A stretch of 17,796 bases of DNA from Bondarzewia mesenterica. Taxonomy: Eukaryota > Basidiomycota > Agaricomycetes > Russulales > Bondarzewiaceae. Location: positions 1-17,796 of the forward strand of contig SGPL01000629.1 of assembly GCA_004802705.1 (NCBI GenBank). Reading direction: 5' to 3'. The position numbers were made by a program, and so were the translations under genes. Numbering within the stretch: position 1 is the first letter of the stretch; every line of letters starts with the position of its first letter. Of the stretch, positions 1 to 17,796 are shown piece by piece. The notes beneath the pieces were generated by a model. The model was not told the origin of the DNA and made no database searches. It worked only from the letters and a program-made list of their open reading frames with translations.

Positions 1-588
1 AATTTTCAGTACCTTCAGCTCAGCTGAAAGTAAAGGTTTCAGGCTCAATTTAGTTGCACATGTGACCAACCTGCCATATTTAATTTTGGACTTGCTGATT
101 TTTTAGATTTCTACCAAATTTCAGACAAAACAACAGAACTTCTGAAAATTTAAGGCCCAGATTGAATTCAGAAGCTCTTCAGGGTGTCTTATTTTAAATA
201 ATGCCTCTTGTGTACTACTGACACTTATTAGTATCATAATTGTGTAAATAAAAAAGGCACGTGAACGGCATAGTTCGGCAGTGACAGCAGCTGTCGGGAT
301 CTGAATTCAGAGGCCAACATTTCTTCGGAAAATCCCGAAGTTGGACTCCAGGCAAAACCCCCCGAATTTGGAAGCAGACCTTAACACAGAACGACTGTCT
401 TCTGTGTAGGTCGCTACGGAGACTAGGCTAGTGTGCTCTCCCGACTGCACACGAGCAAGGTCTCTTCCGACTGCGTCGGAGCTTCCTGAGTGATGGTTCC
501 TGGGAGTTTTCTTATCTAAGCGCCGGAAAGGTTGATGTGAGACGAGCCGGAAAAAATTTTGCGCTGCCCGCTTTCTTCAAACTCCATC
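1..588. other. Upstream non-coding region of the permease
   Basis: No reading frame here resembles a known protein. The first 250 bases are AT-rich and hold small inverted repeats: a TTCAGCT-c-AGCTGAA hairpin near 17-31 and the palindrome TCTGAATTCAGA near 300. From about 260 the GC content rises, which is the likely promoter and 5' leader of the permease that starts at 589. A pyrimidine-rich stretch (ctttcttcaaactcc) lies just before the ATG. I see no convincing TATA box. Confidence 0.4.
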
Positions 589-3084
589 ATGTCCACGCCA
601 TCGATCAAGAGCAAAAGCGATAATGAGGAGGTCTCCTCCCTCGACCAAGACGAGATCCAGCTGGTAATACCGCAGTTGGACAGCTGCCGGGACGGACCAA
701 GCAGGCTATGAGATTGCTGACTGCGTTTGAGGCTTTATCGTTCAATCGGTAACGTCGGTTTCTAGTGGTGAACTGGAATGGCTGCGGGTATCCCTGTTCG
801 CCTCTGCGGTCGTTCTGCTCGCGACAGCCATCTATCTGATTGGCATTGTCTGGGGGGACGTCGTGGAGGGGAGCAGGGATTGAGATTATACCGCTTGAAC
901 CTGATCAGCGCTCAGACCTGCGTAGGGAAGCCCCCAGTGTCACACTTACTTTTCACCCCCTCCACCGGAGGGGACTGCAGCGGAAGTACTGACTTTTTGT
1001 TCTTTTCTTGCCGTTGTTAGCAAAGTCTTGGATACAAGCAGGTTTGTGCATACGTAGGTGTGCGATTGATAATGACTCACCGGCGCTTCGTACATCCCAT
1101 AGCAATTGCATCGTAGCTGGAATTTGATCGAAAGCTTTGCAGCAAGTTTTTGCGCTCTCAATTTCATTGGCGGCGTCAGGTATGTTTCTTTTTCACCGAG
1201 TCACCACAGTCGAAATTTGAGCTGAGTTATATACCAGATCTGCCATCTTCTTGGGACTGCTCGCTGGTGGACCAGCCGCGATTTGGTATATATCCGCCGT
1301 TTTCTGTCATCTCATTGCAGACTCGATATTTTTTCAAGGTCGTCGTATATCATCAGCATGATTTTCATGTTCATCACGGCAGGCGTTCTTGCTGAGATCT
1401 GCTCCGCTTTGCCCTTGAGCGGATCGATCTATATCTGGGCCGCTGAGAGTGCAGGACCAAAGTACGCCAGGTTTTTCGGGTTTATCGTCGCCTGGTGGTC
1501 GACTACCGCCTGGATGACGTTTACTGCTGGAAATTGCCAAGTTCGTGTTTTTATTGCGCGTTCTGGTGCCGTAAGTGGCTGATAAAGTCAAAAGACGACT
1601 GCCAATTACATCGTCTCGCAACTAGCTGTCTGGGAGATCGACTATCCAGGAGGTATCGGCAACGACAACGTGAAATGGCGTGCCCTCATCTGGGTCTTGT
1701 CGGAGGCCATGCTGGTCATTTCCATTGCGATCAATTACTTACCTCCTCGGTTGTACTCGGCAGTGTTCAAATTCTCCATCGGATTGATGATGGTCGACTT
1801 TTTCCTCTGTCTCATCTGGCTTCCGATTGCTACGCACAACACGTACGGGTTCCGTTCGGCCAAGGACGTGTTCACTATGACATGTATGTTGTTGCTTTGT
1901 TGACGTTTACTTGATCGTCGTGTTGATTTATTACATCGTAGACAATGGGACTGGCGCTCCTGCTGGATGGAACTGGATGTTGTCTTTGTAAGTTCGTGAG
2001 AACGTTTAATCATCGAACACATGTTGACCCAACGTCATAGCCTTTTCACTGTTGGGACTATGACTGGATTTGATGCGTCAGGACACATAGCAGAGGAGAC
2101 GAAAAATGCCAGGTTCGTTGCTTTCCCCCAAGCTGGAATAAATATTACTCACGCAAAGCATCATACAGGGTCGTCGCAAGCCGCGGTATTTTGAGCAGCG
2201 TCATCGCCACAGGTGTTCTTGGTTTTGCGACCACGATCCTTTTCCTGTTCTGCACTCCGGATCTCGACACTGTGTTTTCGCTCAATGCTCCTCAGCCCTT
2301 CGTCCAGATATACGCGCTGGCCCTCGGCAAAGGACCCAGCATCTTCATGACGGTTATCGCCGTGCTAGGATTGATCATGGTGCGTCTCGTTGCTTTCGAC
2401 CCGAATACCGAGAATCTCGACACTTAATCACCTCTCTATTAAGAATACGAGCATTGCGGTCGTGGCATCTTCGCGCCTCGTCTATGCGGTCGCCCGCGAC
2501 GGCGTGCTGCCGCTCTCGCACTGGATCGGACGCGTGAATGAGAATGGACAGCCGCAGAACGCGGTCACGGTCATTTTCGTCTTCGCCGCGGCGCTGCTGT
2601 GCACCATCCTCCCCAGTCAGGTGGCNTTCACGTCCCTCGTCTCTGCTGGCGGTGTGCCCACCATCGCCGCCTACGGCCTTATCGGCCTGCTCCGCCTCAC
2701 GATGACCCCGCACATGTTCAAGTCATCCCACTTTTACCTCGGTAGGTTCGCCATCCCGATGTACCTGGCCACGACGCTGTTCAATGGGCTCATATTTGCC
2801 GTGTGTTTCTGTTCCTCTCACATGATCGAGTCGGTTAAAATCTAATGTTGCCTGTCATCTATCTCTTTTTTGTTTCGTTGAAAATTCAGGTCATGATTTC
2901 GCCGTTCTACTTCCCCGTCGATGCTCAGTCCTTCAATTTTGCCTGCGTAATCTTCGGCGCCGTCACGGTCTTCGCACTCCTCTCATGGTGGTTCACGCCC
3001 GCGGAGAAGTGGCTACGTCAGGAGCAGATCGTGCAGGCCTTGCGTCTCGCCGATGATACCTTCGTGGACGAAGTCCGCGATTGA
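589..3084 (+). CDS. APC-superfamily amino acid/choline-type permease, 11 exons
   Basis: A membrane transporter moving amino acids or related amines with a cation. By eye it resembles fungal amino acid/choline and GABA permeases such as Uga4 and Hnm1. Exons: 589-663, 1021-1041, 1103-1179, 1238-1285, 1339-1540, 1595-1883, 1942-1987, 2041-2112, 2169-2379, 2444-2800, 2890-3084. They sum to 1593 nt, giving 530 residues and TGA at 3082-3084; all introns are GT-AG. A hydrophilic N-terminus (about 1-40) contains LGYKQ at 28-32. The family stretch [13 protein letters not shown] follows at about 44-56, then hydrophobic segments including [20 protein letters not shown]. The conserved loop HIAEETKNA is at about 268-276. 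Length is typical of the family. Intron 1 is 357 nt against 53-89 nt for the others. The single N at 2626 is in a GCN codon, so the residue is alanine whatever the base. Substrate cannot be read from sequence. Confidence 0.93.
664..1020 (+). other. Long first intron of the permease
   Basis: This 357-nt intron (donor GTAATA, acceptor TTGTTAG) is several times longer than the others in the gene. It was placed because exon 1 (ending IQL) and exon 2 (QSLGYKQ) join in frame only this way. It contains a 50-codon ATG-less open stretch at 731-880 that encodes a hydrophobic run ([19 protein letters not shown]). Confidence 0.7.
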
Positions 3085-3333
3085 TCTTTTTAATAGACAC
3101 GACCCCAAAGGAAGAGAATGAACTGCCGACTTTTGAACATTTACGAAGAGGGTCACGAACGTCACGAACTTTAGAGTTTTGAGCTGGACGTCTCTTTTCT
3201 TGAAGGAATGTATATACCTTTCTCTTTTCTTGTTTGCACGACAGACATAGTCGACGGTTGTTGGTATTGGTTATTGGTTTTTCTTGTTGCACGCATGATT
3301 ATTGTGATTATGTAGATGCTGTGTAGATGCTGT

Positions 3334-5860
3334 CTAAAATGGCTCTAGGCTCAGAAGGCCCTGGCATGCACCTTCCACGTCTTCGATCTAAAACGGAACG
3401 ATCAGTGAGTGGTCAGATTCACCTGCACTGGGTTTGAAGGTGAGACAGCCGGACGAACCTCCTTGGGAGCCGCGACGCTGAGGACGGTGGGATCGGTCTC
3501 GCCGATCAGCACCTCATCCTAATAGAGAAAAAGAGTAAACAAAGAAAAGACGTCAGGAAATGTACCAGAGGACCGTGTGAGGGTAACAGAGACGGCTGAC
3601 TTCGATGCGGATGCCGAGGCCGTGGAAGTGTTTCGGGAAGGCAGGGTCTGGGGGAACGTATACGCCTAGAATATGTGACAGCAGTGTCAAGATTTGGAAT
3701 GGACGCAATGAGAAGGGGAGGGTTGTGGTGGCTTACCGGGTTCGATGGTGATGACCATGCCCTCCTTGAGTCTGATCGAGGGGCATATGAGAGAGAGAGA
3801 AAAAAATCCGTAAGAAAGAAGAAGCTGAGCGCGTTCGAGAAACGACTTACACGTCGCTCCGGTCGAACCCGCTGGACTCGTGCAAATCTAGTTTTTGAAA
3901 TCCAAATTTGCATCGGGTAAAAGATACGCACAAGTTAGGATAATGCACGCGAGAGAGTGAGTGAGTGAGGTTGTGAACTGTCGCACGCACCGACGCCGAT
4001 GGGATGGGAGAGATAATGTGGATACAGCACGCGTTCAAGGATGCCAGCGGAAGTGCCAAGGTGGAATCCGATCTGGGTGAGCTCGGTGCGAAGGAGTTCG
4101 ACGGACTTGCGGTGGAGGTCGTTCATGGAGAACCCGTGCGTAGCGGCGCAGAGCGCGACGAGTGATTTTTGGGCGGAGAGGAGGGCGGCGTAGAGTTCGC
4201 GCTGTGCAGGTGTGAAGGTGCCGTTGACTGGGAAGGTGCGGGCTGTGAAATGTCAGGAGAGGGTGGTTTAATGAGTGAGTGATGGTAGGAGAAGGGAGAA
4301 GGGACGAACTGATGTCGGAGGCGTATCCGCTAGAGGGGGAGGGCTGGATAAGCTGGAGCTCGGGTGTGATGATAATGAAGATGGAAGAACAAGGCGTACT
4401 TGTATTCGCATGCTGCATCAATCAACACGAGCTCTCCATCCTGGAGGAGATGGTTGTTGCGCGTGTAGTGTATGATCAGCGCATTCGCTCTCCGCGACGC
4501 CAAATACAAAAAAAAAATTGAGTTTACGGGTTGATAGGTGTGATTTTGAATTTAGAGTTGGCTTACCCCGACGCGACCACGGGCACGTAGGCGGGACGTT
4601 GCGACCCACTTCGCGCACAGAGGTATTCGAAATGTGCTGCGAGCTCGGACTCCGATAGGCCTGGCTGGGCTAAACGCATGGTCTGCAAGATACGGTCAGC
4701 AAATGTGCGGACCGACGAGCCCTCGTGCGAGGTCAAAGTAGCTCATGACTATCTGGATGCCGAAGTCGTAAATATTCACCTTCGCATGCGCCCTCCCACT
4801 GATATCCGCGGCAGCCCTCATGACCGCCACCTCCGTCTTACTCTTTACACTCCTTAACTTCGCCACCAACGGCGCCAGCGGTCTCCGCTTACTCGCCGCC
4901 AGACTTTCCAAGACACTCTCGAACTCCACGCGCGGCACCGCATCAGCGGAGCCCGCGAGATACTTCAACAGGGACTTTGCCGATCCCCGCGACGCGCGCT
5001 CTCGACGCGCGGACGGCGGCAGGTCGACGTAGGTGGCGGGGGAGGTCGGGAGGAGGGCTTTGAGGTCGGTGGAGAAGCGATCGATCAAGCACGCGTCGTC
5101 CGCCCCGAAAAGGCGCGTCACATCCACGAAGGGCGTCCGTGCACCATCCCATTGCTCCTTTGCGGGGTCCTGGCCGCCGCTGTAGAGCGTCATGCTGTAG
5201 CCGCGCGGGCTGTGGTCTTTTCCTGTATTTTTTGATGGTCATACTTACGATGATAGCCCGTAGAAAGGGGAGAGTAGGACGTACGAAGGATGACGGCCGA
5301 GTCGGGCTCTTCGAAACCGGTCAAGTACCAAAAGTCGGACGCTTGTCGGAACTTGTAGCTTTGCAGGCAAGCGGTCAGGATCGGTGAATCCAGTCAAGCT
5401 CGCCATAGTAACTCACAATATCGCTGAATTCGATAAGTTCATACTTATGAACCTCTCTGAAGATATATTTGTTGAAAACTCACCACCGCTCATGTATTTC
5501 ACCTGTCCGGAGACGGACACGACCAAACTGCCATCCGGCAAACTTTCCATCAGCTCCACCCGTCTCCTCTCATACTCTCTCGCCGGTATACCAGGCGTGG
5601 TCTCTTGAGGTTGCACTGGAATCATTCAACGTCCCATTCTGACCTCAGTCCTTTCCGTCCCGGCGCACACGAAAGGCGGAACGCTCACCGAGGTAGGGAT
5701 GACTCTGAAATGTGGGCTGGCCAAACTTGGAGGGTTTTGGAACGGTGCTAAAATCCAGTTCGGTAGCGTAGGTCCTGCATGGGAAAGGGCGGGTGCACCG
5801 TGGAAGAGAGGAGGAAGAGAGCGCTCTTCGGGCGACCGAGGTGAGTGAGCGGACAGACAT
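3334..5860 (-). CDS. ICP55: Mitochondrial Xaa-Pro aminopeptidase (intermediate cleaving peptidase 55), 14 exons
   Basis: A metallo-aminopeptidase of family M24B. The family removes one residue from proteins after the mitochondrial processing peptidase has cut, which stabilises the mature proteins. Exons on the minus strand: 5860-5689, 5615-5484, 5423-5417, 5358-5285, 5222-4780, 4682-4567, 4489-4400, 4329-4310, 4242-3991, 3887-3851, 3771-3737, 3665-3601, 3518-3459, 3387-3334. They sum to 1557 nt, giving 518 residues, close to yeast Icp55. The Arg/Ser-rich, acid-free N-terminus (MSVRSLTSVARRALSSSS) is a mitochondrial targeting sequence. The N-domain has TPGIPAREYERRR, GQVKYMSG and SDFWYLTGFEEPDSAVIL. 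All five metal ligands are seen: D339 (LIDAACEYN), D350 (ASDITRTF), H431 (SHPIGVD), E458 (TIEPG), E481 (GIRIEDE). LIDAAC replaces the usual DAG-C. The C-terminus EDVEGACQGLLSL is the expected ending. Exon 3 is 7 nt and exon 8 is 20 nt. The intron 12 donor is an unusual GTCAGC. Confidence 0.95.
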
Positions 5861-5947
5861 GGAGGTGGTCCCATTGTAGGGTTAGGTCCCCGTCTGCTAG
5901 GGTTGCGCTGTGTGACCAGCGTCGACGGGGGCGTGACCGCGTCTGGC

Positions 5948-7420
5948 ATGGCAGGAAACCATCAGCAACTTCTCGCGAGTCGCGTCCACGGAATCCAACT
6001 TCAACAATCATCAAGTGAGTCATACTACTAGTACCGCTTCCTCCTCCCATGCACCGCCTCTCTTTGCCTCACTATCTCCGACAACCGGCCTTCTAAACAA
6101 GTCCTCATGGTGTACTACCGTACCTCCTCCACCGGCGCTAGATCAAAGGATCATAGCATACCTGGTCATATCGGAACATACTAGGGCAGTCTCCATGGAT
6201 GTTCGTCAACGAAGGTTATTACGACTACGCGGACGGAAACAACGAAAATGTGGTTTATGCGCTCCGTTCGAGCTGTGCGCGCAATCGCTTACGGGCGCAT
6301 GTCCCAACGTCCTGTTTTATTGTAAGAATAAGGGGAACGTCGGCGCGAGCATACCTAGCTTTCGAGTGACCGACGGGATCTGCAGTACATGTCTTCTGCC
6401 TTCATCTCTTTATGTTCGATTGGTGCTAGGGCTTGTGCTGTGGATTCTGCATGGTGTGTTGGCGAGTCGGCTTGTGCGAGAACACGCGTAAAGAACTGGT
6501 TGAAAAGTACAGACGTTACATAGATGCTGAGTTAAAAACCAAGGAAGGCAGTGAGTTCACTCTACAGTATGTACCTCGATAGCTCTCAAGTACTGAAACA
6601 CACGTGGACATCCCCCTCGTAGGGCTCGAAAATACGTCAATGTCCATTTCCCTGTCTGCGGATCTTAATATTGCGCAGTTCTAACATGTATGCATCCCAT
6701 GAATTCCGAACAGCGTCTATGCCTCCCTCATCGCGCATCCCAACGCGTTCAAGTCCCTGCGTTATGAACACAATGAAGCACCTGGAGCGCGAGATCTTCG
6801 ACACCCTCAGACGGAGACACAATACGAATTCGCAATCCCAGTATGCTTCCCTTCCTTCGTTTCAATGTGTCTTTTTCCTTTCTAGATAGACGTGCGAAGG
6901 CAGAAACGGGACAAAAGGGGTTCCAAGTTCAGTCAGAGGTATGCGGGTCGTATTTGATACACTAGGCTCCACCTCAACAGGCTGGTCGTGCTTGGAGGAA
7001 CGACAACTACCGTGACTACTTGGACGGCCGCAACGACCCCGGCGAGACCCCGTTTCTGTCTCCCTCGTCTTTTGCGCACCGTTGACCGATGGCGGGCATG
7101 GATGCATATTCCGATGCCCTTCTCTATCATGAAAATGATGTCCATATAGGCGAGAGCATCTCTAGCTGGACAGTCAACGACGGAACTTGCGGTGCGTGTG
7201 TTTGTTTTTGTCCGTCCGTACAACTCATTAATATTATTATCCCGTCTGGTCTCAGGGCTGGATCAAACAGGGTATAAACACGGACACTTCCCTGCGCAGC
7301 TGTCGCCTCACATCCGCCGTAAATACGTGACACACGGCGCGTCACCGCGTTGCGCTCAGGCGATGATTTTCATGTTAACAAATTTCAATACACCTCATGT
7401 TCGCATTCATCCACAGTAAT
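5948..7420 (+). other. Exon-like segments of an unrecognised, possibly broken gene
   Basis: Several short plus-strand stretches have protein-like composition and plausible splice borders, but I could not join them into one frame or match a family. Segments include SPWMFVNEGYYDYADGNNEN (about 6192-6251), KELVEKYRRYIDAELKTKEG (about 6490-6550) and VYASLIAHPNAFKSLRYEHN (about 6714-6775, running on to a donor near 6840). Further on are WRNDNYRDYLDGRNDPGETP (about 6988-7047), SDALLYHENDVHIGESISSW (about 7110-7170, donor at 7194) and GYKHGHFPAQLSPHIRRKYV (about 7270-7330). An ATG at 5948 could start it, only 87 bp from the divergent ICP55 ATG. In-frame stops between segments mean either many introns or a decaying gene. 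Function unknown. Confidence 0.3.
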
Positions 7421-7606
7421 CAACGATTCAACACAGAGTCATATATAACACAGATATTCAGACAAGCAAACAGACAGACACCACGGCTCGACCCATCCCC
7501 TTTGCCCCCGCCCCTCCCTGTCTGTCTTCCATCGTCGATCGTCCGCGGTACGTTTCTTGTTTCTTTTTTTTCTTTTTTTCTTTAAAGTGAGGAAGATGGA
7601 AGTGGC

Positions 7607-7828
7607 TCAGACCCCCACGGCCAGTGCTTGAGTAGGGGTACTGTCGGGATCGCGCCGAAACGCCCTACCGACTAGAAACCTCACCCCCTGGGTATACGGG
7701 ATTCCGGCCATGTGCGTTTCGTGCGAAGGCGGCGCCGGCGCACGCATCGAAGTTGACTCGTCGGGCGCGTGTGTCGGTGTTGGCGAAGTCTTGAAGAGGT
7801 CTTGCGCCTCAGCTCTAGCCCACCCAAG
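7607..7828 (-). CDS. Possible last exon of an unrecognised minus-strand gene
   Basis: A GC-rich open stretch of 73 codons begins right after a good acceptor (cactgccttgtag) and ends in TGA at 7609-7607. It reads LGWARAEAQDLFKTSPTPTH, then a Pro/Ser-rich part, then MAGIPYTQGVRFLVGRAFRR and a short tail. An internal ATG near 7744 could alternatively start a 46-residue product. No upstream exon could be assigned with confidence, and I recognise no family. It may be chance coding potential in GC-rich DNA. Confidence 0.2.
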   Translation of the reverse strand, partial: LGWARAEAQDLFKTSPTPTHAPDESTSMRAPAPPSHETHMAGIPYTQGVRFLVGRAFRRDPDSTPTQALAVGV

Positions 7829-7882
7829 CTACAAGGCAGTGGGAGTACCGAACTGATTGGGAGAATCAGACGGTGTAGGTGT

Positions 7883-7896
7883 CCTTTTTATACCCC
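7883..7896 (-). promoter_or_regulatory. TATA-like box, minus strand
   Basis: On the minus strand the sequence is GGGGTATAAAAAGG, a strong match to a TATA box, about 55-70 bp upstream of the possible minus-strand exon at 7828-7607. Without a confirmed transcript this is only suggestive. Confidence 0.25.
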
Positions 7897-7899
7897 TCA

Positions 7900-8660
7900 G
7901 GCAGGGGATAAATATGGTGCTATATTTAGAGACTGAAAGGGACAAGTGTCAGACCGAGACGAATCCGTCGATCCTATGCACGAATGCGGATTGATAACTT
8001 GGAACTGATTCTCCCTGATTCTGCAAGTGTTAAACGTTAAACGACGTTCTGGGACCTGTTTTCCAAATCTAGAATTACTGACTTGCCACAACGCCTCTTT
8101 CCTTCAACGTTCGGCACGCGGCAATTGTGGAAAGAATATTCCGCAGTAGTCAAGATATCTGTGTTCAGGATAAAGCTTTTTTTAAAGCCTGCTGAGCTTC
8201 ACAGAACCGTTAGATCTCGCCTGTTCACATCGCATGATGATGTGAGTCACGACAATATGAATGGTTTTCACGTAAAGTACAGAGGATTGGAAGAGCCTAA
8301 CTGGCATTCTGTAACTGACATGTAAGTACATGCGAGAAAGAACATAACCAGAATGTAGTATGTCAACTTTACACGCTTGACTTGGCCATTGCGCAGACGA
8401 ATGGCACACCGGCCTCACGTCGTTGATATCGGGGTTCTTTGAAAGTCAACGACAGAATGGAACCCCGGTAACAGAACGCATACGCTACAATGTCGACCTT
8501 TCCAACGCAGCAAGGTCGGCACAAGTGAAGATCCTGTACATGATACTTACGCAATCGGCAATGTGCTGCTTGTCGCTACTATGATGATAGCCCCAATCAC
8601 ATCTACGTTTCCATGTCTCAACGTAAGCCTAGATCATCATATGGATCAGTTCAATTATAG
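7900..8660. other. No recognisable gene; transition to AT-rich DNA
   Basis: Only short frames with no family resemblance are present on either strand, for example 8083-8325 plus and 7897-8091 minus. A possible 38-nt intron (donor GTAAGC at 8623, acceptor at 8660) would connect its end to the exon that starts at 8661, so part of the stretch may be degraded upstream sequence of that protein. Confidence 0.4.
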
Positions 8661-9110
8661 TGTCAACAATGTAATACAATATTTGAAGAAACACCAATCA
8701 CAAGTTCTTTATGGCATACTGATTTGAGCCATAAAGATCTTTTAACTGCAGCTATTGTGAAATTATTACTTGATCACAAAGATGAAAGATCATGTGTATC
8801 TTGTATTAATAATTTTCAAAGAACAACTGTACTCAAACATCTACCTATCACCTTTTACTTAGAAATCAATCAAATAGCTGGAGACTTTGATCTCAACATA
8901 ATGATTGACACAACTATATATCAATTAAGAGGCATTATTTACTGGGGATCCAATCACTTTACTGCAAGGATAATTTCTAAAGATTACAATGTATGGCAAT
9001 ATAATGGTACATTTATAGATGAAGAATGCATATTTGAAAATACATATTCAGAGATTATACAAACTGAATTGCACTCCTTAAATGGAAGATCAGCTTCAAT
9101 ATTAATTTGA
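8661..9110 (+). pseudogene. 3' exon of an ubiquitin-protease-like, transposon-associated protein
   Basis: This 450-nt AT-rich open stretch follows an acceptor (tcaattatag) and ends in TGA at 9108-9110. It reads CQQCNTIFEETPITSSLWHT, a Cys pair (CVSC), and then LRGIIYWGSNHFTARIISKD followed by NVWQYNGT. The SNHFTAR...WQYNG pattern is like the histidine box of ubiquitin-specific cysteine peptidases (GGHYTAYV...WYxxDD). As I recall, C-terminal domains of this kind occur in repeated mushroom proteins associated with transposons. I find no N-terminal catalytic-Cys exon upstream. An ancestral-repeat tail follows at 9134-9203, which also supports a mobile origin. Probably a truncated copy. The domain is a family resemblance judged by eye. 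Confidence 0.55.
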
Positions 9111-9133
9111 TCAAGACTTTAATGAAGTTTTAA

Positions 9134-9203
9134 CATAAAATTAAAAAGATGTGGGAATCTTTCATGCCATGCAATGCAGCGGCCCTCTCCTAATAAGTTC
9201 AGC
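9134..9203 (+). repeat. Direct repeat, copy 1 (other copy 14471-14540)
   Basis: About 70 bp centred on CATGCCATGCAATGCAGC and CCCTCTCCTAA recurs at 14471-14540 in the same orientation with about ten differences. Here it lies just downstream of the protease-like ORF, so it probably marks the 3' end of that mobile element family. The two copies diverge sharply after GTTCAGC / GTCCAGC. Confidence 0.75.
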
Positions 9204-9364
9204 AGATGTGCAGTGACACACCTTAGAAATGATGTGTGATGAGCGATCATCCGACAGCGTGATTAGATCAGTGGTCTAGCATTGGCGAAGGCATCGCTAA
9301 AAAGATTGCGCGCATTGATTAGCCTGGTGTAAACTAAGGTCTAAACTCGATGCAAAGTTGAACG

Positions 9365-9476
9365 CAGACTCCTACCCAGTCCCTATTTTGAGTATAGAGT
9401 AATTGCTAGGGCAGTAGCAATGTTTTTTGTCAGGAAAAAATAAATCATGTGATTTCTGAAAAAAACATACCCTAAT
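9365..9476 (+). repeat. Left 112-bp inverted repeat of the composite element
   Basis: Starts CAGACTCCTACCCAGTCCC and ends AACATACCCTAAT. The reverse complement of 15740-15851 matches it over all 112 bases without gaps, with five mismatches by eye, four of them transitions. Both copies end inward at exactly CCCTAAT. Outside the left copy is GTTGAACG and outside the right copy is GTTGAATG, a possible degenerate target-site duplication. Confidence 0.85.
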
Positions 9477-9617
9477 TATGATTCTCTAAAAGGGAATCAT
9501 TACTTATAGATGATAAAAGGACCATTTTGACCCCTCCCAGAATGAATGAGCCTAGTCGACTACAATCATCATTAGAGTCACGACTAGTGTCATTAGAAAT
9601 TAGTAAGAAACTGACGA

Positions 9618-9710
9618 CTACTGTATCATTCCGACCAATTCATTTGTCATACGTCACAAGGGTGCCAGCGGAAGGACTCCTGATAATAGGGAGTGAGGTC
9701 GGGTCGGCGT
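9618..9710 (+). repeat. Inverted repeat S (partner 10478-10658)
   Basis: ACTGTATCATTCCGACCAATTC...GACTCCTGATAATAGGGAGTGAGGTC is matched by the reverse complement of the later stretch, ACTGTACCATTCTGACTAATTC...GACCCCTGATAATAGGGGGTGAGGTC. This copy lacks about 90 bp from the middle. Most differences are C/T or G/A. Confidence 0.65.
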
Positions 9711-10477
9711 CCACCAGTAAAAGGCTCCCCGGCCCCGGACAAGTCGGGTAGTGCCCGGTTGTGATCCACCAGCAAGACGCCGGTCCAAGGCCTGAGGTAG
9801 GGTTTTTTGTCCATCAGTCACCTCCCCTGTATGGGAGGTCAGGTCTGTCCACCATCTGCATTTCAAACTCTATGTTCGTGCCAATACCATACACGTCCAT
9901 CGATTGTCTACTTAGTGAGCCACTGTGAATGTGCCCTATGGCATCTTGTGGCAAGCAAGTATGCATTTTGTCTTCTCATCTTTGTCCTGTTAATATACAG
10001 GTAAGTCTGCCACTCAGTTTTTTTTCATCAAAATCCCCCCTCTTTCACTCAATGTCTCTTCCTATTGACTTCCATTTGAAATCTATTACGGTTACAGATA
10101 GCTCGAATTTATATCATGTGACTACTGATCATGACATGTCATCTTGGATTAGATGCAACAAGCGATACAAGAACTGGTTACATGCTGTTGCACAAGGAGC
10201 AGTTGGTTTTGGCAGTTGAGGCTATAGAGCAGTCTAAGATGTCAGTCAATGATGAAGATAATGGCTTGGAGTAGCAGACTGGGTAAATAGATATAAAAAT
10301 ACATTATCTATGAATTTTTGCGCATTTTTTGGATTTTTTCTGAAATTTTTAGAGGTTAGGTAATTTACCCACCAGTTCCGCCAAAAAAGTTGAGATTGGG
10401 TCACCTCATGATAGGGAATTTCCTTATTTGGGTAGCATTTTTGTTCACCAGCTCAGAGCCAGAAGGCCGAAAAATCT

Positions 10478-10658
10478 GACCTGACCTCACCCCCTATTAT
10501 CAGGGGTCCTAATGCAGTGCAGCTGATGTCACAAAACTTTGACTGGGAATGAAATTATCCCTTTGTCACAGTCATACCCTACTCCAAATGAATGAATGAA
10601 CTTGAAACCTGTCACACGGGTCATTTCAAGAATGAATTAGTCAGAATGGTACAGTATG
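10478..10658 (-). repeat. Inverted repeat T (partner 9618-9710)
   Basis: The longer copy of the pair facing 9618-9710. It holds a small CCCC-TATTATCA-GGGG hairpin near 10491-10506. The pair flanks about 770 bp and may be the ends of a small nested non-autonomous element. Confidence 0.65.
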
Positions 10659-10871
10659 CTCACTTCATTTTCTCTGTAGAGTTTCTTCACCAGTCAACCG
10701 GTAAGCATATTTACCGATAAGTTTTCTAGTCTTTGGATTCTAGTCGAACAATTTTATTTTGTAGTATTGTAACTCTGCATAGTCAAGCTTCTCTAGTCTT
10801 CATATTATAGTCAACCTATATCGGATCGCTCTCTACCACCTACTCAAAACCCTCATCATCCCGACGCACCC

Positions 10872-11812
10872 ATGGAAGCTCTCAGCTCTCGCAGGTGCTG
10901 AAAGTTAGAAGAGTACGAAGGAGAGTGAAAACAAGAAAATTGAAAGTAAGTCTATACATTTTGTCTGCATATCAACAACATTAGACAAGCATCATACATG
11001 GCCCCAGCTCACTGTTTCGACACAGTGGGCATTCATTTACCCCCAGCACATCTCCAGCCCCATCGTTTTAATCTGACTTGGTTCGCGCTCATCCACCCCA
11101 TCATCAGCCTCATTGTTTTGGCACAATGGGGCTTTGCACTCACCCAGCACATTCTCAGCCCCATTGTTTCGAGACGGCGGGGCTCACCCTCATCTAGCAT
11201 GTCATCAGCCCCATCATTTCAATATGATGTGGGTTCATGCACACCCATCTCATCCTCAGCCTTATCATTTTAGCACAATGGGGCTTCGTGCTCATGCAGC
11301 ATGTTCCTAGCCCTGTTGTTTCGATCCTGTTGCTTACAGTGCACTAATACTGTGACAGCGAAGCCACTGGTGGACAAGATGTATGAGAAGCATAAGGCAG
11401 TGGCACTAGAGCTCGGTAAGTGTGTATGGCTCCTGCTCTGAGTGCCATAGAAGGAACTGATGTTGTGCGAGGAAAAATGTATCCCTGAGGCCCACTAGCA
11501 GGGAGATGACCACCGCATAGTTCAGATCGTGGACCAGCTCACGGGAATGTTTAGCAGTCCCTCGAAAATGCTGCATGTACAGAGTGGAGGCCTCATCGGG
11601 CTTACGGGGATGGCGATCGCACTTGGAGTGTACATCATATCATACATGGAATGGTTTTTTGAGAACCAGCTCACCTGCTTGGTGAGCTTGATAATAGTGT
11701 GTACTACTTTTCCACCAAGTGCCTGCACAATATCGTTAAGGTATCCAAGGCCGAGTTCTGGTGTACTTCACTCTCATCTTTGACACACTGAGTAAAGTGA
11801 GTTTTGCAGTTG
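10872..11812 (+). pseudogene. VAC14: VAC14 N-terminal fragment (captured, broken)
   Basis: VAC14 is the HEAT-repeat scaffold of the Fab1/PIKfyve complex that controls phosphatidylinositol 3,5-bisphosphate on vacuole membranes. Pieces in order: a start-like ATG at 10872 (MEALSSR, donor near 10895); an exon at 11340-11415 with KPLVDKMYEKHKAVALEL, like the family's DKxYEKRKAAALE; HRIVQIVDQLTGMFSSPSKM and GGLIGLTGMAIALGVYI from about 11499; then VYYFSTKCLHNIVKVSKAE and VLVYFTLIFDTLSK up to a donor after 11806. A stop (TAG) precedes QGDDHR, and the frame changes near 11670 and again near 11760, so no functional protein is possible. Only the first part of a gene normally over 700 codons is present. 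Intron 1 is filled by a minisatellite. Confidence 0.85.
11005..11335 (+). repeat. Minisatellite, 50-51 bp unit, about 6.5 copies
   Basis: Units begin with CAGCC or close variants at 11005, 11055, 11105, 11156, 11206, 11257 and 11308. A typical unit is CAGCCCCATTGTTTCGAGAC followed by GGGGCT...CTCATC. Copies are strongly diverged from one another. It lies inside what was the first intron of the VAC14 fragment. Confidence 0.8.
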
Positions 11813-11854
11813 TGCTTCCACCCATAGCCATACAACTGAAACACCAGCACTGCA

Positions 11855-11996
11855 GCATCCACCATGATCATGATGCAGAGCATGCCCTTTGAGCAGTGGC
11901 TGTTTCGTGGCCACCTCGATTTTCCACCAGGTCCAAGAGACATCTTTGAGCTCCCTGCTGGTCAGATTGTAACTACAGAGATTGGATGCAATAAGG
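11855..11996 (+). pseudogene. AA14 lytic polysaccharide monooxygenase fragment
   Basis: One exon-sized piece preceded by an acceptor (caccagcactgcag) and ending at a donor (AAGG|GTGTGT). It reads MPFEQWLFRGHLDFPPGPRD, then IFELPAGQIVTTEIGCNKG. AA14 enzymes, copper oxidases acting on xylan-coated cellulose and found chiefly in wood-decay basidiomycetes, share a segment of the form FDQWWFxGHLxxPP...DxFELPAG...TxExxCNKGAT. The catalytic N-terminal histidine and the rest of the domain are missing, so this is a captured fragment. Identification is by remembered family motif, not by search. Confidence 0.7.
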
Positions 11997-12094
11997 GTGT
12001 GTGGACGCGCCTACTGATTTCTGCTTTGGGTTCTTTAGAGGGTGCATGTTTTCTCTTTTTCACCTATGGCTCAAGCTTATTGCTACATTTATAG

Positions 12095-12310
12095 CATTGA
12101 GGGTGTGAAGCTACTCATATGGAGGTACAAGTTGATGCGCGAGGTGCTCAATGGATGCCCATCTTTGAGGGCGAGTACGCACAGCTGCATCCCACATTTA
12201 CACCCGGGAGCAAGACAGCATTGCTCAAGTGCATCTCCCGATCAGCATGCCCGATGTGGTATATTTAGAGGAGGACGATTGTGTGATCGAGGCTTACATG
12301 TGGCCCTTTG
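12095..12310 (+). pseudogene. Alcohol oxidase (GMC oxidoreductase) C-terminal fragment
   Basis: The piece begins after an acceptor-like TTTATAG and ends at a donor (CCCTTTG|GTGAGT). It reads EGVKLLIWRYKLMRE; then, after a one-base frame change, QWMPIFEGEYAQLHPTFTPG; then, after another, ISMPDVVYLEEDDCVIEAY. Fungal FAD-dependent alcohol oxidases have the same order near their C-terminus: VWAYKxxREIxRRM, RGExxxxHPxFPxGS, PDIxYTxEDDxAIxxY. The catalytic His segment (TTWHSLGT) and the FAD-binding N-terminus are absent. The two frame changes show it is not functional. Confidence 0.65.
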
Positions 12311-12473
12311 GTGAGTGCCTGCCCATCTCTTTATGAATCACTGTTGAATCGAATTATAGAGTGCCTCTTTCAACCTCCTTGCTAGTTATCAATGCATCTC
12401 GCACCCTACGCACCCTCCATCAGATGCAAAAGATCAGTGCCTCAACTGTCCAGCCTCACCTAGTTTACGAATG

Positions 12474-12736
12474 CAGGTGTCCCTAGCAAATCTCTTATCA
12501 CTCCTACTCCAGTTTCGGTTCAGATGATGAGTGGTATGCAAGGCATTATTCAGCCGATTGCCATCCCCGTGTTCAAGGGCCTGACTGTCAGGAGTCGAAA
12601 TGCACTACCTACGCCCAGGGGCAAGGCCATTGAGAAGATCAAGAGACCATCTGATGAAGCTGAGTTAGGCAAAGAGGATGAGAAGTCTATCACTATCATC
12701 GACAATGGCACTCCGCATACCTATTTGCCTCATTAA
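12474..12736 (+). pseudogene. Unrecognised coding fragment
   Basis: An open frame runs from about 12474 through ATG 12524 to TAA at 12734-12736. It has a Ser/Thr/Pro-rich start (GVPSKSLITPTPVSVQMMSG), then QPIAIPVFKGLTVRSRNALP and a charged part, GKAIEKIKRPSDEAELGKED, ending TPHTYLPH. I recognise no family. It looks like the disordered part of a regulatory or nuclear protein and sits in line with the other captured pieces, in the same orientation. Confidence 0.45.
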
Positions 12737-13118
12737 TGTTAGCTGCTGTACCTACCCCCAGCATTACTGTGAGTGGGTACTGGACACCCGCCCGACCATG
12801 TGCTCTATAGCTAGGTATATCAAGAGACACATCTCCTTCCCCCTCACTCGAAGCCATTGTATTTAATTGAGCCCACTCAAGGTGGATACAGTGTGCATAT
12901 GAGCACTCCTTAGCATGGCCTCTGCAATCTCCTCATTTCATTTTCTCTCATACTCCTTTTCAACTTGACTAGATTCATCTGAACTCAGTCTTAAGTCTCG
13001 CATCCTATCATGTCCTAAGCCCATGTCTCTTTTCTCCTTCACTCTCTTCACCTAGTCCCTGTCCTGTTGCCATCTTCTGTCTGCCAGCAAATATCTTCAG
13101 CAACTCGCCCAGCCAATA
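12737..13118. other. No recognisable gene between captured fragments
   Basis: Pyrimidine-rich sequence with short frames only. The stretch around 13000-13110 is rich in CTC/TCC and could be captured intron or leader sequence of the bHLH gene that follows. Confidence 0.35.
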
Positions 13119-13155
13119 ATGGACTGCTCTATAAAGAATATTATACCCTATGCTA

Positions 13156-13862
13156 GGACCTACAATCCCCCTCATTATGTCAACCATTCTCGAATGATAG
13201 AATCTGAGAGACTACCGTCCATTCTCACCATGGCCATACCTAACAGATGTCCACCAGCAGCAAAGATGCTAGGGGGTGCTGATGAAGAACTAGAGGCACC
13301 TGCTGCAGCTTACCTAAAGCACTGTGGCCGCAGGCTTTTCACTTTATTGCATGCCACTTGCGAGTCGATTTGGAGGCAAAACTATTGGAGGATCGAGAAG
13401 GCTAGACGGATGAAGATTAATGACATGCTCGCTACCCTATGTGAGCTCATTCAAGCTGGTATCAGACAAGGAGATGTAGCTGAGGATGATGACAATGATA
13501 AGGATGAGTATTTGGAGGAGAAGAAGAAGCAGAGAGAGAAAAAGCAGGATGAGAAGGAGAAGGAGTTCAAGTTGGAGGTGCTGGAGAAGACCATTGTATA
13601 TGTCAAGGAGCTTAAGGAAAAGGTCAGGCTTCTCGAGGAGACACCTTGCGTTAAGTGCACCACATGGGCAGATAACTTTTCACAATGCTAACTGAGTCAG
13701 AAGAGGAAGCACATCGAGGAGGACAAGGATAAAGATGAGTCTGTCCAAGACATCGAGATCAATCTGTCTTCGCATTCACTCACCGGTCGTGGTGAGGATC
13801 ATCAGTATAAGAAGGGAGTTAAACCGCTGAGGGGATCAAAATACATGGTGGTGGAGATGTGC
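13156..13862 (+). pseudogene. bHLH transcription factor fragment, interrupted by a stop
   Basis: The open frame 13119-13691 contains LPSILTMAIPNRCPPAAKML, then RIEKARRMKINDMLATLCEL (about 13393-13452), an acidic/lysine-rich linker and EFKLEVLEKTIVYVKELKEK (about 13564-13623). This is basic region, helix 1, long loop, helix 2 and start of a leucine-rich coil, as in fungal INO4-like bHLH proteins. After TAA at 13689-13691 the same frame stays open for 56 codons (SQKRKHIEEDKDKDE...) to TGA at about 13864, so the stop looks like a later nonsense change. Usual basic-region residues are altered: HVEKRRRMKIN in the family is RIEKARRMKIN here, losing the DNA-contacting His. A captured, decayed copy is likely. 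Confidence 0.75.
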
Positions 13863-13869
13863 TGAGGGT

Positions 13870-14470
13870 CAGCATCCTGATGAATCCAGTAAGGGCAGGA
13901 GGTTTAAGAGCAGCCCACTCATCAGTGGGCTGAGGCTGTCAGTAAAGATGAAAGTTCGAATGCATGTGATGAAGAGAATGTGAAGGAAGGTGGATATCTG
14001 ATAAGAGGGATAAGGTAAGACCAAATAAGGATATGAAGGTCTTTATTGGACAAATTATAGATAGATTTATATAAATATAGCAAATTTACATAGATTTTTG
14101 TCAATTTAAAAAGACAGTGCTGTAATTAGCATTTGATTTGTGGTAGATTTCAGCTCTATTTATCTCTATTTATCTATCCCTTTTTAACTAGATCTAGAAA
14201 CTAGAAATTATTAGATTTAAGAATATCTAGTAGAATGTATAAGATTCTATGGGATAGTTATGCTATATCTAATTATATAGTGATAAATTTAGCCAGACAG
14301 TATTATATTTATGTATATTTTGCTAGATGTAAGAAGATCTTGCTATATTTATAAAGATTGTTACTATCAGAGGTAATTTTATCTAATGCAGACTATTAAA
14401 GAAGAAGGATGCTGTATAAGTTGAGATTTACTTTAATATAAATTTATTAAAGGGTCTGATTGAATTTTAA
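13870..14470. other. AT-rich non-coding stretch
   Basis: Very AT-rich DNA with recurring short motifs (CTAGAT, TATTTATCTA, AGATTTA) and no supported reading frame. It separates the bHLH fragment from the repeat that starts near 14471. Confidence 0.5.
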
Positions 14471-14540
14471 AATAAAGTTAAAAAGAGGTGGAAATCGTTC
14501 ATGTCGTGCAATGCAGCAGCCCTCTCCTAACAAGTCCAGC
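14471..14540 (+). repeat. Direct repeat, copy 2 (other copy 9134-9203)
   Basis: Matches 9134-9203 in the same orientation (AATGCAGCAGCCCTCTCCTA). Five kilobases separate the copies. Here it runs directly into the inverted repeat starting CCAGCCAAC at 14536. Confidence 0.75.
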
Positions 14541-14625
14541 CAACTTCACCTCTTAACTCTCTATAGGGACTGGCAGTAAACATCAGCGCTTAATTCTCGG
14601 CAAGCACTATGCGCACTCAACGCGT
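14536..14625 (+). repeat. Inner inverted repeat P (partner 15650-15739)
   Basis: CCAGCCAACTTCACCTCTTA...ATAGGGACTGGCAGTAAA...ATGCGCACTCAACGCGT is matched by the reverse complement of 15650-15739. About 15 of 90 positions differ, nearly all C/T or G/A and several at CG dinucleotides (AACGCGT against AATGCAT). The pair brackets about 1 kb with two coding remnants. Confidence 0.8.
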
Positions 14626-14690
14626 TATGTAAACTTCTTGCGGCGGGACAGTAGATACAAATTTTCACCTCATATATCACAACACTCATT

Positions 14691-14864
14691 ATGTCAGATG
14701 AAAAATTCCACTCTGTAATTCAGGCTTTAGACAATGTTCATCTGACTATTGCACAATTTCTCGCTGCCTTAATAGATAGTCCTAAAAACCAAGTCAAACA
14801 AGATGCTATCTGGGATGTTGGAAAAAGATACACCAGATCATGTTTGATTATCCTGAGAGGGTGA
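14691..14864 (+). pseudogene. N-terminal fragment of a transposon-type protein
   Basis: An ATG-initiated 57-residue frame (MSDEKFHSVIQALDNVHLTI, AQFLAALIDSP..., ending LIILRG, TGA at 14862-14864). The start resembles the N-terminus of repeated mushroom proteins of unknown function found in mobile DNA; this is recollection of a pattern, not a search result. It lies downstream of the CCAGCCAAC repeat, as expected for a promoter-bearing end followed by an ORF. It stops far short of a full protein. Confidence 0.4.
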
Positions 14865-15008
14865 TTATTTGAGCAATAAAATAGAGTTGTCTAGTGGGGG
14901 TGGAGGTTCAGGGTCTTTTCACAGAAGATAAAATCGACAGAGGGATAGTGGCAGAAGTGGCAAGGACTGGCAAGGATAGGAATTGAGGGGGAAAGCAGGT
15001 ATCAGAGA

Positions 15009-15540
15009 TGGCTGATGTCCTAATATTCCTGTCGGAACCCACCCCATTGATCCACGCAATGAGCTTCGTCCACTACCAACTTGACAAGTCTCGAGATGAG
15101 AGGCTTCTTCTTCAGCATTTCTTCAAAGCCCTTGAGATCGGACATGAGGATTTCTGGATTGGCAATGACAACTCTGTATTTACACATTGTAATATCCTTA
15201 TGATATATAAAGAGATAAGTGATAAATTTTCACATGAGAGGAAGAATGACAGAGTCACCTTCAAATTATCTTCAGTAGCATTATTACCGGTGAGAGCTAT
15301 AGCTCGTATCCCCTTGCTATTAAGAAACTGTACATTTTAATCACCCAAGAGGTTAAGGGCAGTCACAATAATTAAGATGGCTTCAGAGTTAAAGAGAAGA
15401 GGAAGCCAGAATGTCAGGGTCTTTCTGTCACCAGTAGCCACGATGGATATTATGTCGGTCTTTCTTAAAATGAGTGCTGCACCGATCTCAAGTTGCCAGA
15501 GACATGATGATTGACCCAGCTGCTTCTTGGCAGTTGTCAG
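15009..15540 (-). pseudogene. RecQ-like DEAD/DEAH helicase fragment, broken
   Basis: On the minus strand, helicase domain 1 motifs appear in order: the Q-motif area WQLEIGAALILRKTD (from 15498); motif I as SIVATGDRKTLTFWLPLLF; motif Ia-like VTALNLLG; ALTGNNATEDNLK; an intron (15258-15197); YRVVIANPEILMSDLKGF; and motif II VVDEAHCVDQWGGFRQEY. DEAHC...QWG..FR..Y is typical of RecQ-type helicases. The Walker A loop is damaged (expected GSGKT, seen GDRKT). A TAA replaces the Gln expected after LLGD, and TAG follows RQEY at 15022-15020. Only about a quarter of a helicase remains, opposite in strand to the other captured pieces. The 110-residue plus-strand frame here is its antisense shadow. Confidence 0.85.
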
Positions 15541-15649
15541 ATCTCACTGAGGGACAGAATACCATTCCGTGAGAAGGACACTGCTGAGAAGCTGGCAGAG
15601 GCATGCCAGTACTAGGCACATCAAACACGTCAAAAAATGCAGTCAATAG

Positions 15650-15739
15650 ATGCATTGAGTGCGCATGGCGCTTGTCGAGAATTAAGTGCCAACATTTACC
15701 GCTAGTCCCTATGGAGAGTTGAGAGGTGAAGTTGGCTGG
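15650..15739 (-). repeat. Inner inverted repeat Q (partner 14536-14625)
   Basis: Minus-strand copy of the repeat at 14536-14625. It abuts the 112-bp outer repeat (15740-15851) with no gap. Confidence 0.8.
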
Positions 15740-15851
15740 ATTAGGGTATGTTTTTTTCAGAGATCACATGATTTATTTTTTCCTGACAAAAAACATTGCT
15801 ATTGCCCTAGCAATTACTCTCTACTTGAAATAGGGACTGGGTAGGAGTCTG
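15740..15851 (-). repeat. Right 112-bp inverted repeat of the composite element
   Basis: Reverse-complement partner of 9365-9476, equal in length and about 96% identical by eye. The inward end is CCCTAAT and the outward end CAGACTCC, followed on the plus strand by GGTTGAATG. Confidence 0.85.
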
Positions 15852-16382
15852 GGTTGAATGCACCCTTGGAATGATGCCAAATACTGATAAACTACATACA
15901 TAGATGCAAACAATTTATATATAGATATAAATAAACCTCTGCCAGCTATATTGATGTAGCACGCAATGCTGGCTGAGGCACACACAGAGGAACAAGTGTA
16001 CTTTCTCAAAAGTCTGCCAAATGCCAATGCTGTTCTGTGCAACATCTACATTGCTGCTGTCTTGCTGACACCTGCTAGCATGTGCTACATTTGTAGGTGT
16101 CTTGCTGAAACTATGTCGGTTGTTATCATTGTAAAATAGTACATCAGTATTATACCTCTAATCGGGCAACTCACCAGTAGTACTCACTACTCAAGCACGT
16201 GACCTTAGTCTGTACTCTATACTCCTGCTGCTCATTCTGCCCCTTATTCTGTACTCAGGCAGCATTATGTTTGTACTCTGGTCTGGTGCTAGTTCTCGAG
16301 ATGAGGTTTATTTAATTAAATACTAAACTTGGTGGCACCCTATTACCCCTGAGAATGTCATGAAATTAAAAATTTTAGGTTA
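15852..16382. other. AT-rich stretch without a supported gene
   Basis: Holds a short frame at 15966-16139 (57 codons, MLAEAHTEEQVYFLKSLPNA) with no family resemblance, and repeated words (TGTCTTGCTGA near 16056 and 16098; TGTACTCT several times at 16210-16280). No gene is supported. Confidence 0.4.
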
Positions 16383-16384
16383 TA

Positions 16385-16807
16385 TGGTGCTCGCCACTCA
16401 TGACTACTTTTGTACAGTGGCCAATCTGGTCTGAAGAAAAATAAATCTATATATATGCAATAAAAATGACAGATAGTTAGAGCTCAGCACTCAATGCAGA
16501 GTTGAATAAAAGCAAGTTACTATTGCAACATCCCACCTCGCCAACATTACTCATTGACCAGTAGATTTTTGTGTAGGATAGAGATGGGGTAATCACGTGA
16601 TATATACTATATTAGGAAGTTATTACATAATATAGTCAAATTAAATTATATATCTCTGTCAATTTTGAGCTACAGAAAAATTGGTCTTACAAAAAGTTTT
16701 TACTCATCAAAAGGAGCATTTCTGTTGAAGGAATAAAAAAATCAGGTGAAATCTCAGTGAGGTATATCAGTTGTACAAAAGTAGCGATAACTAAGTGGTG
16801 AGCACCA
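16385..16807. mobile_element. MITE with mariner-like ends, flanked by TA
   Basis: The left end TGGTGCTCGCCACTCATGAC and the reverse complement of the right end, TGGTGCTCACCACTTAGTTA, are terminal inverted repeats. Both continue inward to TACTTTTGTACA. The dinucleotide TA flanks each end (16383-16384 and 16808-16809), the target duplication used by Tc1/mariner/pogo elements. The 423-bp interior is AT-rich and codes for nothing, so it depends on a transposase elsewhere. Confidence 0.75.
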
Positions 16808-16904
16808 TAGTGTTCAAGGGGACTAGCAGGCTCCTGTGATTATGTCACAGCATATTACAGAGTTGAGAACAGATAATTTAGATGTTTTTGTTAAGATTAC
16901 AAGC

Positions 16905-17300
16905 TGATGCCGGAGTAGCACGTCGGCTGTAATGTTTTCCACATTGTATGTTTTCTCCTTGATGTTTGATCCAGATGCCACAGCGTGATGTCCATTCCAT
17001 TCTTACTTACCTTTCTGTTTGGGCTATGGCTGACTAGTTCACTCGTTCTCTACACTGTATAGTTCTAGGATTTACAGTTAGCTTCTGGTTGAATCTTATT
17101 TACAGTGTATATAAAGCTTGCATACTGAGTTTTTATCACCTCAGACTCTTGTTCACGTGAGGTGTGCACGAGACTGAGGTGAGCTATCTTTATCTTACTT
17201 AACTACTACTTAGTTTGTTTACAAGGTTTCTTTACCTAGACATTGTATCTTTGCTAGATAACTTATAGACTCTTGTTCACGTGACATCAGGGAAAATACA
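16905..17300 (+). repeat. Possible LTR-retrotransposon LTR or remnant
   Basis: Starts TGATGCCGGAGTAGCACGTC, the style of many fungal Gypsy LTR beginnings. It has a TATA box (GTATATAAAGC near 17107) and then a hairpin, CACCTCAGACTC...GAGACTGAGGTG (17140-17180). AGACTCTTGTTCACGTGA occurs twice (near 17145 and 17268). I found no clean CA end, target duplication or internal coding region, so the boundaries are guesses. Confidence 0.3.
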
Positions 17301-17480
17301 ACTTGTAAATAACATGTAATAATGATTTATAACAGCTAATTCTAAAACTTCCTGTTATTAGTTATCCCCCCTTGATAACCGATGTGTTATTACTTGATAA
17401 TCCATTGCCAACAAAGCATGGTTTTAATATTTAATGCAACATTAAAATTAATTCCGACTTTTTTTTCTTTTTTCATTTTG
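17301..17480. other. AT-rich non-coding stretch
   Basis: Only an AT-driven frame on the plus strand with low-complexity hydrophobic translation; no gene is supported. Confidence 0.35.
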
Positions 17481-17572
17481 CCATCTGCCAGGTTTGAACC
17501 CAAGGCCCTTTGCCTTGCACTTTTCCGGCAGACCTTACTTACTCTTTTAACCACTACACCATTCTATCTTAT
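17460..17572 (-). repeat. tRNA-like / SINE-like segment with A- and B-box
   Basis: On the minus strand ATGGTGTAGTGGTTA matches a Pol III A box and GGGTTCAAACCTGG matches a B box. An A-rich tail follows (AAAATGAAAAAAGAAAAAAA). The boxes start about 61 nt apart, longer than in a normal tRNA, and no proper acceptor stem can be drawn. This is a tRNA-derived SINE head or a decayed tRNA rather than a working tRNA. Confidence 0.4.
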
Positions 17573-17796
17573 AATTTATACCTCAATATATTTCTTTATA
17601 GAGCTCAAACTGACTTATACTTTTTTTTATATCTGCTTGCTATCAATGGCTACTGTCATTTCTCATGCATTAACCCTATGCATATTATACATCATCAGAA
17701 AGCTATTAATGAGAAGAGTTCAGATTTGATATTTTTAATTAAAAACTGCTTTGACTTAACCAATAAATGCAAAAACTTCATCAAATGCTGTGTGTA

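Follow-up and report, generated by a model that had tools for sequence, protein, structure and literature searches.

A Helitron with pieces of five host genes inside the split terminal repeat of a transposon in Bondarzewia mesenterica

The basidiomycete Bondarzewia mesenterica carries a nest of transposable elements and host-gene pieces on contig SGPL01000629.1. The window analysed here is the whole of this contig (17,796 nucleotides; C587 below), which is one of 844 in an assembly of 33.1 Mb (GCA_004802705.1). Positions 9365-15851 are bounded by the terminal inverted repeats (TIRs) of a small transposon, and a Helitron of 5,059 bp (9476-14534, plus strand) is inserted in the left one. Between the ends of the Helitron lie pieces of a VAC14 gene, a lytic polysaccharide monooxygenase (LPMO) gene of family AA14, a GMC oxidoreductase gene, an unnamed gene and a basic helix-loop-helix (bHLH) gene. 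The original prediction, made from the sequence before this analysis, had attributed these pieces and a RecQ-like helicase to a single Pack-type TIR transposon with ends of 112 bp.

The split terminal repeat

Two inverted repeats of 112 nt each, 96% identical, lie at 9365-9476 and 15740-15851, just as predicted. They are the outer part of a longer repeat, because a second pair of arms (14535-14623 and 15652-15740, 85% identity) continues them across the insert; this pair abuts the right 112-bp arm on its inner side. When 9476-14534 is taken out, the left arm becomes a single TIR of 200 bp that aligns without a gap to the right TIR. The two then differ by 18 mismatches in 200 bp, 17 of which are transitions. 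Thus 112 bp is not the full length of the repeat.

The left TIR consists of an outer part of 111 bp (9365-9475, plus strand), whose partner is the outer stretch of the right TIR, and an inner part of 89 bp severed by the Helitron (14535-14623, plus strand), which pairs with 15652-15740. The right TIR (15652-15851, minus strand, 200 bp) is intact and represents the unoccupied version of the left one. Together, 9365-9475 and 14535-15851 make up a TIR element of about 1.43 kb. The Helitron lies at CCCTAA^TCCAG, an A^T site. It has no target duplication, and its removal restores the left TIR without a base gained or lost. The ambiguous T at its edge was assigned to the target, on the 3' side. A reading in which the insert lies in the centre of a palindromic miniature inverted-repeat transposable element (MITE) was dropped, since the second TIR arm explains the junction.

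The TIR element has a target duplication of its own, of about 9 bp. The left copy is AGTTGAACG (9356-9364) and the right copy GGTTGAATG (15852-15860), both on the plus strand. They were read directly and compared with a relative on contig C668 (L058), which matches the joined flanks of the TIR element through an unoccupied, empty-site-like GGTTGAACG. The two copies of this duplication disagree at two positions, and a single transition separates each copy from the sequence on C668. The stretch 15852-16096 and L058 are copies of another repeat, which was hit by the insertion of the TIR element. In C668 this repeat may start with a hairpin end of comparable type (TTACCTTGCTTGCAAGG), which was observed in a single copy.

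These boundaries bear directly on the Pack-type explanation, in which one transposon with 112-bp ends gathered all the gene pieces. The TIRs do enclose every piece, a target duplication is present, and the composite could in principle still move as a unit. However, the TIR resumes beyond the Helitron, and this split refutes the gathering step. The pieces sit wholly between Helitron ends that are known at dozens of other sites, several of them with other content. In the genome the TIR repeat is found at this locus and in a 94% identical partner on contig C284 (all three candidates scored); neither copies with these ends and different contents nor a second TIR element besides the one on C284 was found in the genome's contigs. 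A Pack-type origin of the pieces is thus very improbable.

The predicted helicase lies outside the Helitron. It is a RecQ/DEAD fragment with stop codons within the TIR element (15005-15540, minus strand), matched by PF00270 (E 8e-5) and TIGR00614 (E 1e-5), both below the curated cut-offs. Its relatives elsewhere in the genome share just 44-47% amino-acid identity with it. Six-frame Pfam scans of 9300-15900 on both strands detected no transposase. According to the accessible text of two reports, AcademH elements are helicase-bearing TIR transposons that make 9-10 bp target duplications (PMC10045372) and are low-copy in fungi, including Basidiomycota (PMC10799480). The RecQ-like piece is part of the TIR element, and in view of these reports it may have been a gene of the element itself. 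The TIR element could be a deleted derivative of an AcademH-type transposon, which it resembles in its TIRs and helicase and perhaps in its imperfect duplication of about 9 bp. It differs in having no detected transposase, and so the likeness, which concerns the TIR element only, remains a lead.

Ends and relatives of the Helitron

The 5' terminus of the Helitron (9476-9505, plus strand) was recognized by genome pattern hits with differing flanks. The family pattern, TTAYGATTCCCGATTAGGGAATCRTTACTT, includes a terminal hairpin and is found at 39 other places in the genome with at most three mismatches; a reversed control gave none. In an alignment of 13 other 5'-end loci the end is common and the outside flanks diverge. 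The exceptions are C85 and C361, which are duplicates with their flanks included, and C45. On C45 (L020, 1190-1360), two 5' ends stand in tandem about 160 bp apart.

The 3' end region (14103-14534, plus strand) finishes with ...CCTCTCCTAACAAG and includes a possible hairpin at 14503-14520. It was placed by pattern hits and aligned copies: ...CTCTCCTAACAAG has 69 hits in the genome and none in the control. In all 15 aligned rows, which represent 14 separate places since C284 is the window's partner, the base directly after the 3' end is T, and beyond this T the sequences diverge. All three both-ended copies with readable edges (the window, C168 and C636) lie at A^T, the kind of site used by canonical Helitron1 elements, and C168 and C636 both lack a target duplication.

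The termini, TTAY... and ...CTAACAAG, are not the canonical 5'-TC and 3'-CTRR of Helitron1. The family 5' end forms a hairpin with a 9-bp stem (-9.5 kcal/mol, z -5.6, computed on the family sequence). The candidate 3' hairpin stops 14 nt before the terminus, compared with 10-12 nt in canonical Helitron1; 90.5% of its cells are paired across 15 copies, its fold z is only -1.0, and its covariation is not above that of shuffles (153 of 500 as high). Family sequences also show an asymmetric terminal inverted repeat: the 5' end carries ACGATTCCC, and GGGAATCGT lies 37-45 nt ahead of the 3' terminus. This repeat is reduced in the window copy, and it was read from the family sequences without a chance estimate. 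The asymmetric repeat and the 5' terminal hairpin correspond to the layout described for Helitron2 (PMC5148889).

The Helitron protein RepHel was located through PF14214 (Helitron_like_N) matches in the genome, of which 41 of 44 were used, with a pairing limit of 12 kb. From 5' ends, five RepHel matches lie downstream on the same strand (four of them at 5.76-6.1 kb), one lies on the opposite strand and none upstream. From RepHel, nine 3' ends lie downstream on the same strand (seven at 5.06-5.52 kb), one on the opposite strand and none upstream. On C175, a 5' end, PF14214 and a 3' end follow one another in order on one strand within 10.58 kb, judged by positions. The motif TTAC is also that of Starship elements. 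A Starship-like reading of the TTAC edge was dropped, as RepHel and the 3' end lie at clustered distances.

The Helitron opens with a leader. Its first part (9476-9620, plus strand) is conserved, and its second part (10655-11325, plus strand) is common to C45, C27, C451, C374, C169 and others. Within the leader sits MITE-A (9621-10654, no strand assigned), a multicopy element with a TA duplication seen by eye. MITE-A in turn hosts MITE-B (9673-10510, no strand assigned), which has 33-bp TIRs and many copies. Just left of the TIR element, 8613-9197 is a further 3' end of this Helitron family, in truncated form; a decayed open reading frame in it (8661-9107) encodes a protein without relatives at E 0.001.

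Gene pieces and their decay

The pieces all lie on the plus strand. The VAC14 piece (11328-11848) is 81% identical to a locus on C257, where Vac14_Fab1_bd falls within the matched part. The AA14 LPMO piece (11878-11997) is recognized directly by PF22810 (E 9.8e-15, above cut-off) and is 87% identical to an AA14 gene on C457. The oxidoreductase piece (12001-12321) is 73-76% identical to a locus on C843, with GMC domain matches on either side of the matched part. The unnamed gene, 82% identical to a locus on C158, is present as part A (12389-12885) and part B (13849-14014). Between them lies the bHLH piece (12891-13845, 955 bp), 87.5% identical to a locus on C566 where HLH is above cut-off; in the window itself the HLH match is below it (E 0.0016). 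No Pfam match was obtained for the C158 gene in the frames tried; its upstream frame may resemble Mam3/CNNM proteins.

Thus, among the predicted fragments, AA14 can be read from the window, VAC14, the oxidoreductase and bHLH are identified through their donor-like loci, and the RecQ-like piece is seen only below cut-offs. The predicted alcohol oxidase is a GMC oxidoreductase; the more specific name is that of the prediction. A search for parent genes identical to the fragments had been proposed as a check. Donor-like loci do occur, at 76-88% identity, on five separate contigs with their own flanks, and donor and window sequences diverge at the edges of every piece.

These loci also bear on the idea that the pieces are the remains of an old host locus where the genes were neighbours. 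No support for it was found. Since the donor-like loci are on five contigs, the pieces are not a colinear relic, and the bHLH piece interrupts a C158 piece that is contiguous at its donor save for 32 bp. We regard this explanation as close to negligible.

A chance stack of independent insertions and rearrangements, with no single capturing element, can appeal to the evident transposon nest formed by MITE-A, MITE-B, the Helitron remnant at 8613-9197 and the TIR element. However, the five gene pieces lie together between both Helitron ends, separated by gaps of 3-67 bp, and all are in sense orientation; the sole minus-strand Pfam match in the scanned region is the helicase of the TIR element. 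Sister elements with a like layout carry other genes. A chance stack is therefore very improbable.

The position of the bHLH piece within the C158 piece means that capture was stepwise. At C158 a gap of 32 bp separates part A from part B, and so the bHLH piece occupies the place of 32 bp lost from an earlier capture. A repair-type process that inserts filler DNA would account for this nested piece.

The fragments were predicted to be cut at exon or intron borders throughout. This fails for at least 6 of the 12 ends: the AA14 piece and both parts of the unnamed gene start and stop inside coding sequence. The VAC14 piece starts, and the oxidase piece stops, about 12 bp within an intron as judged by eye, and the oxidase piece retains intron-like DNA, which argues for capture as DNA. 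Right after part B of the C158 gene, 14010-14025 contains AAG|GTAAGA, a junction like a splice donor that is not in the donor locus.

Decay of the copies consists chiefly of C-to-T changes and is strongest at CpG, and the donor loci retain normal CpG content. Donor-to-copy C>T/G>A changes number 64 against 14 in the reverse direction for VAC14, 55 against 8 for the oxidase (C843), 69 against 11 and 25 against 5 for parts A and B of the C158 gene, and 97 against 5 for bHLH. Across the six pieces, the share of altered positions is 33-46% for CpG of the donor, compared with 4-18% for other C or G. The observed/expected ratio of CpG is 1.09 in 1-8600 and 1.00-1.28 in the five donor-like loci, but falls to 0.39 across the captured stretch and to 0.14 for the remnant at 8613-9197. 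From this pattern of substitution, DNA methylation is a likely candidate for the cause of the CpG decay.

Other copies of the Helitron family also seem to carry gene pieces. Pfam scans covered C15, C85, C369, C268, C447, C168, C636, C374, C45 and C169 but not L049, L051, L054 and L056; most members were scanned over their first 1.3-2 kb only, and no 3' end is visible for C15, C85 or C369. Gene domains occur in 6 of these 10 members, 3 of them above the Pfam cut-offs: UDP-glucose dehydrogenase and glycogen synthase in C15, calreticulin family and HMGL-like in C85, and cyclophilin in C369. Below cut-off are TPR in C268, C1 and kinase in C636, and UDP-glucose dehydrogenase and Rpb1 in C374. C168, C447, C45 and C169 have no Pfam domain in their sense frames. 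The antisense frames of C15, C85 and C369 gave no match; the other members were scanned in sense only, and a sense bias of the family would be tentative. The C636 element, which has both ends, matches C496 (88% over 1.5 kb), C129 (96% over 289 bp) and C265 (79% over about 260 bp), which may be donors or copies. A DNA search found no donor for the C15 glycogen synthase piece.

Taken together, it is very probable that a Helitron in the left TIR of an unrelated TIR transposon carries pieces captured stepwise from five host loci, which then decayed by C>T change. The element would be non-autonomous, presumably mobilised by the RepHel protein of full-length relatives and transposed as a rolling circle. 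It would have taken genomic DNA from five host loci over several steps, the bHLH piece being added within the piece already captured from the C158 gene. Capture probably preceded insertion at the A^T site within the left terminal repeat of the roughly 1.4-kb TIR transposon, and the copies would have decayed after capture, mainly by C-to-T and most of all at CpG. The prediction that one mobile element gathered pieces of five unrelated genes thus stands, with a Helitron as the element and without the RecQ-like piece.

Several observations weigh against this explanation. The window's own 5' hairpin is degenerate and more than three mismatches away from the family pattern. Of the 14 rows, 7 have A directly before the 5' end and the other 7 have G. 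Within 12 kb, pairs of 5' and 3' ends favour the right order modestly, with nine downstream on the same strand, four on the opposite strand and four upstream (C168 counted twice). The RepHel-bearing copy on C175 is known by positions only, and the empty site consists of the intact right TIR and one diverged paralogue rather than another strain. At 73-76% identity, the locus matched by the oxidase piece may be paralogous to the true donor. The AA14 piece has no overall directional bias (6 changes each way in 120 bp), nor has a second oxidase relative, C261 (10 against 9 in 153 bp).

Known systems and the rest of the contig

The window Helitron is a new, well-bounded case of the known gene-capturing Helitrons. 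The comparisons below follow the accessible parts of the cited reports. In Fusarium oxysporum, the Helitron2-type elements FoHeli1/2 likewise have a hairpin at the very 5' end and no target duplication, and their 5' end is repeated in inverted form about 40 bp before the 3' terminus (PMC5148889). They differ in their ends (TCAG...ATTTT, as opposed to TTAY...CTAACAAG here) and in their target (a TNAT-type site, as opposed to A^T or G^T). For FoHeli elements, 27 putative captures are described, with no important role seen (PMC5148889); the window family differs in having several host-gene pieces per element.

Maize Helitrons also combine several host gene pieces per element by stepwise addition (PMC3288121). 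The window family differs in its fungal host, its ends and the C>T decay of its pieces. Gene-capturing Helitrons are known in bats as well (PMC4778049). Pack-MULE and Pack-TYPE elements are alike in that one transposon holds gene pieces of several origins, but in the window the TIR element is not the carrier of the pieces. Among fungi, TIR transposons of Pyrenophora have been reported to capture genes (PMC3538342).

HELPO1 and HELPO2 of the basidiomycete Pleurotus ostreatus are Helitrons with RepHel and no target duplication, and the gene-like sequences within HELPO1 have other or unknown origins (PMC4289320). In contrast to the window family, the accessible part of the report by Castanera and others records no capture of host genes or fragments (PMC4289320). 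The host-fragment search in that study required more than 95% identity (PMC4289320). None of the six pieces in the window, at 76-88% identity to their donor-like loci, would pass this limit, in good part because C sites, above all those in CpG, have mutated in the copies. The decay offers an explanation, open to testing, of why the earlier search found none. No report of multiple host-gene pieces per basidiomycete Helitron was found among open-licence titles and the starts of abstracts, which is weak evidence of absence.

The interest of the locus lies in its fungal host, where a single genome offers both ends of the family, relatives with RepHel, donor-like loci and cargo that differs between copies. 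The nested bHLH piece provides a concrete case of how Helitrons add pieces. A conserved leader of about 230 bp, with splice-like signals seen by eye, may act as promoter and first exon of chimeric transcripts. It is a speculative and rather doubtful possibility that the family is a working exon shuffler, with sense pieces placed behind this leader, and that capture in basidiomycetes is perhaps common and overlooked. If true, host-gene capture by basidiomycete Helitrons would have been missed since C>T decay, strongest at CpG, drops the pieces below 95%.

The left 8.6 kb of the contig contains an amino-acid permease gene and an aminopeptidase-P-like gene. A weak match to the glucosidase II beta-like domain PF12999 lies at about 6291-6386 (E 2.9e-5, below cut-off). 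Contig C284 (L005, L035) begins within the Helitron, and its positions 1-5925 are a 94% colinear partner of 11919-17796 of the window. The two differ by 246 transitions and 9 transversions across 5,442 sites; C284 may represent either a second allele of the locus or a segmental duplication of it. The contig end, 17284-17796, is a multicopy repeat, possibly a long terminal repeat, with 92-95% identical copies on C83, C423, C762 and C796.

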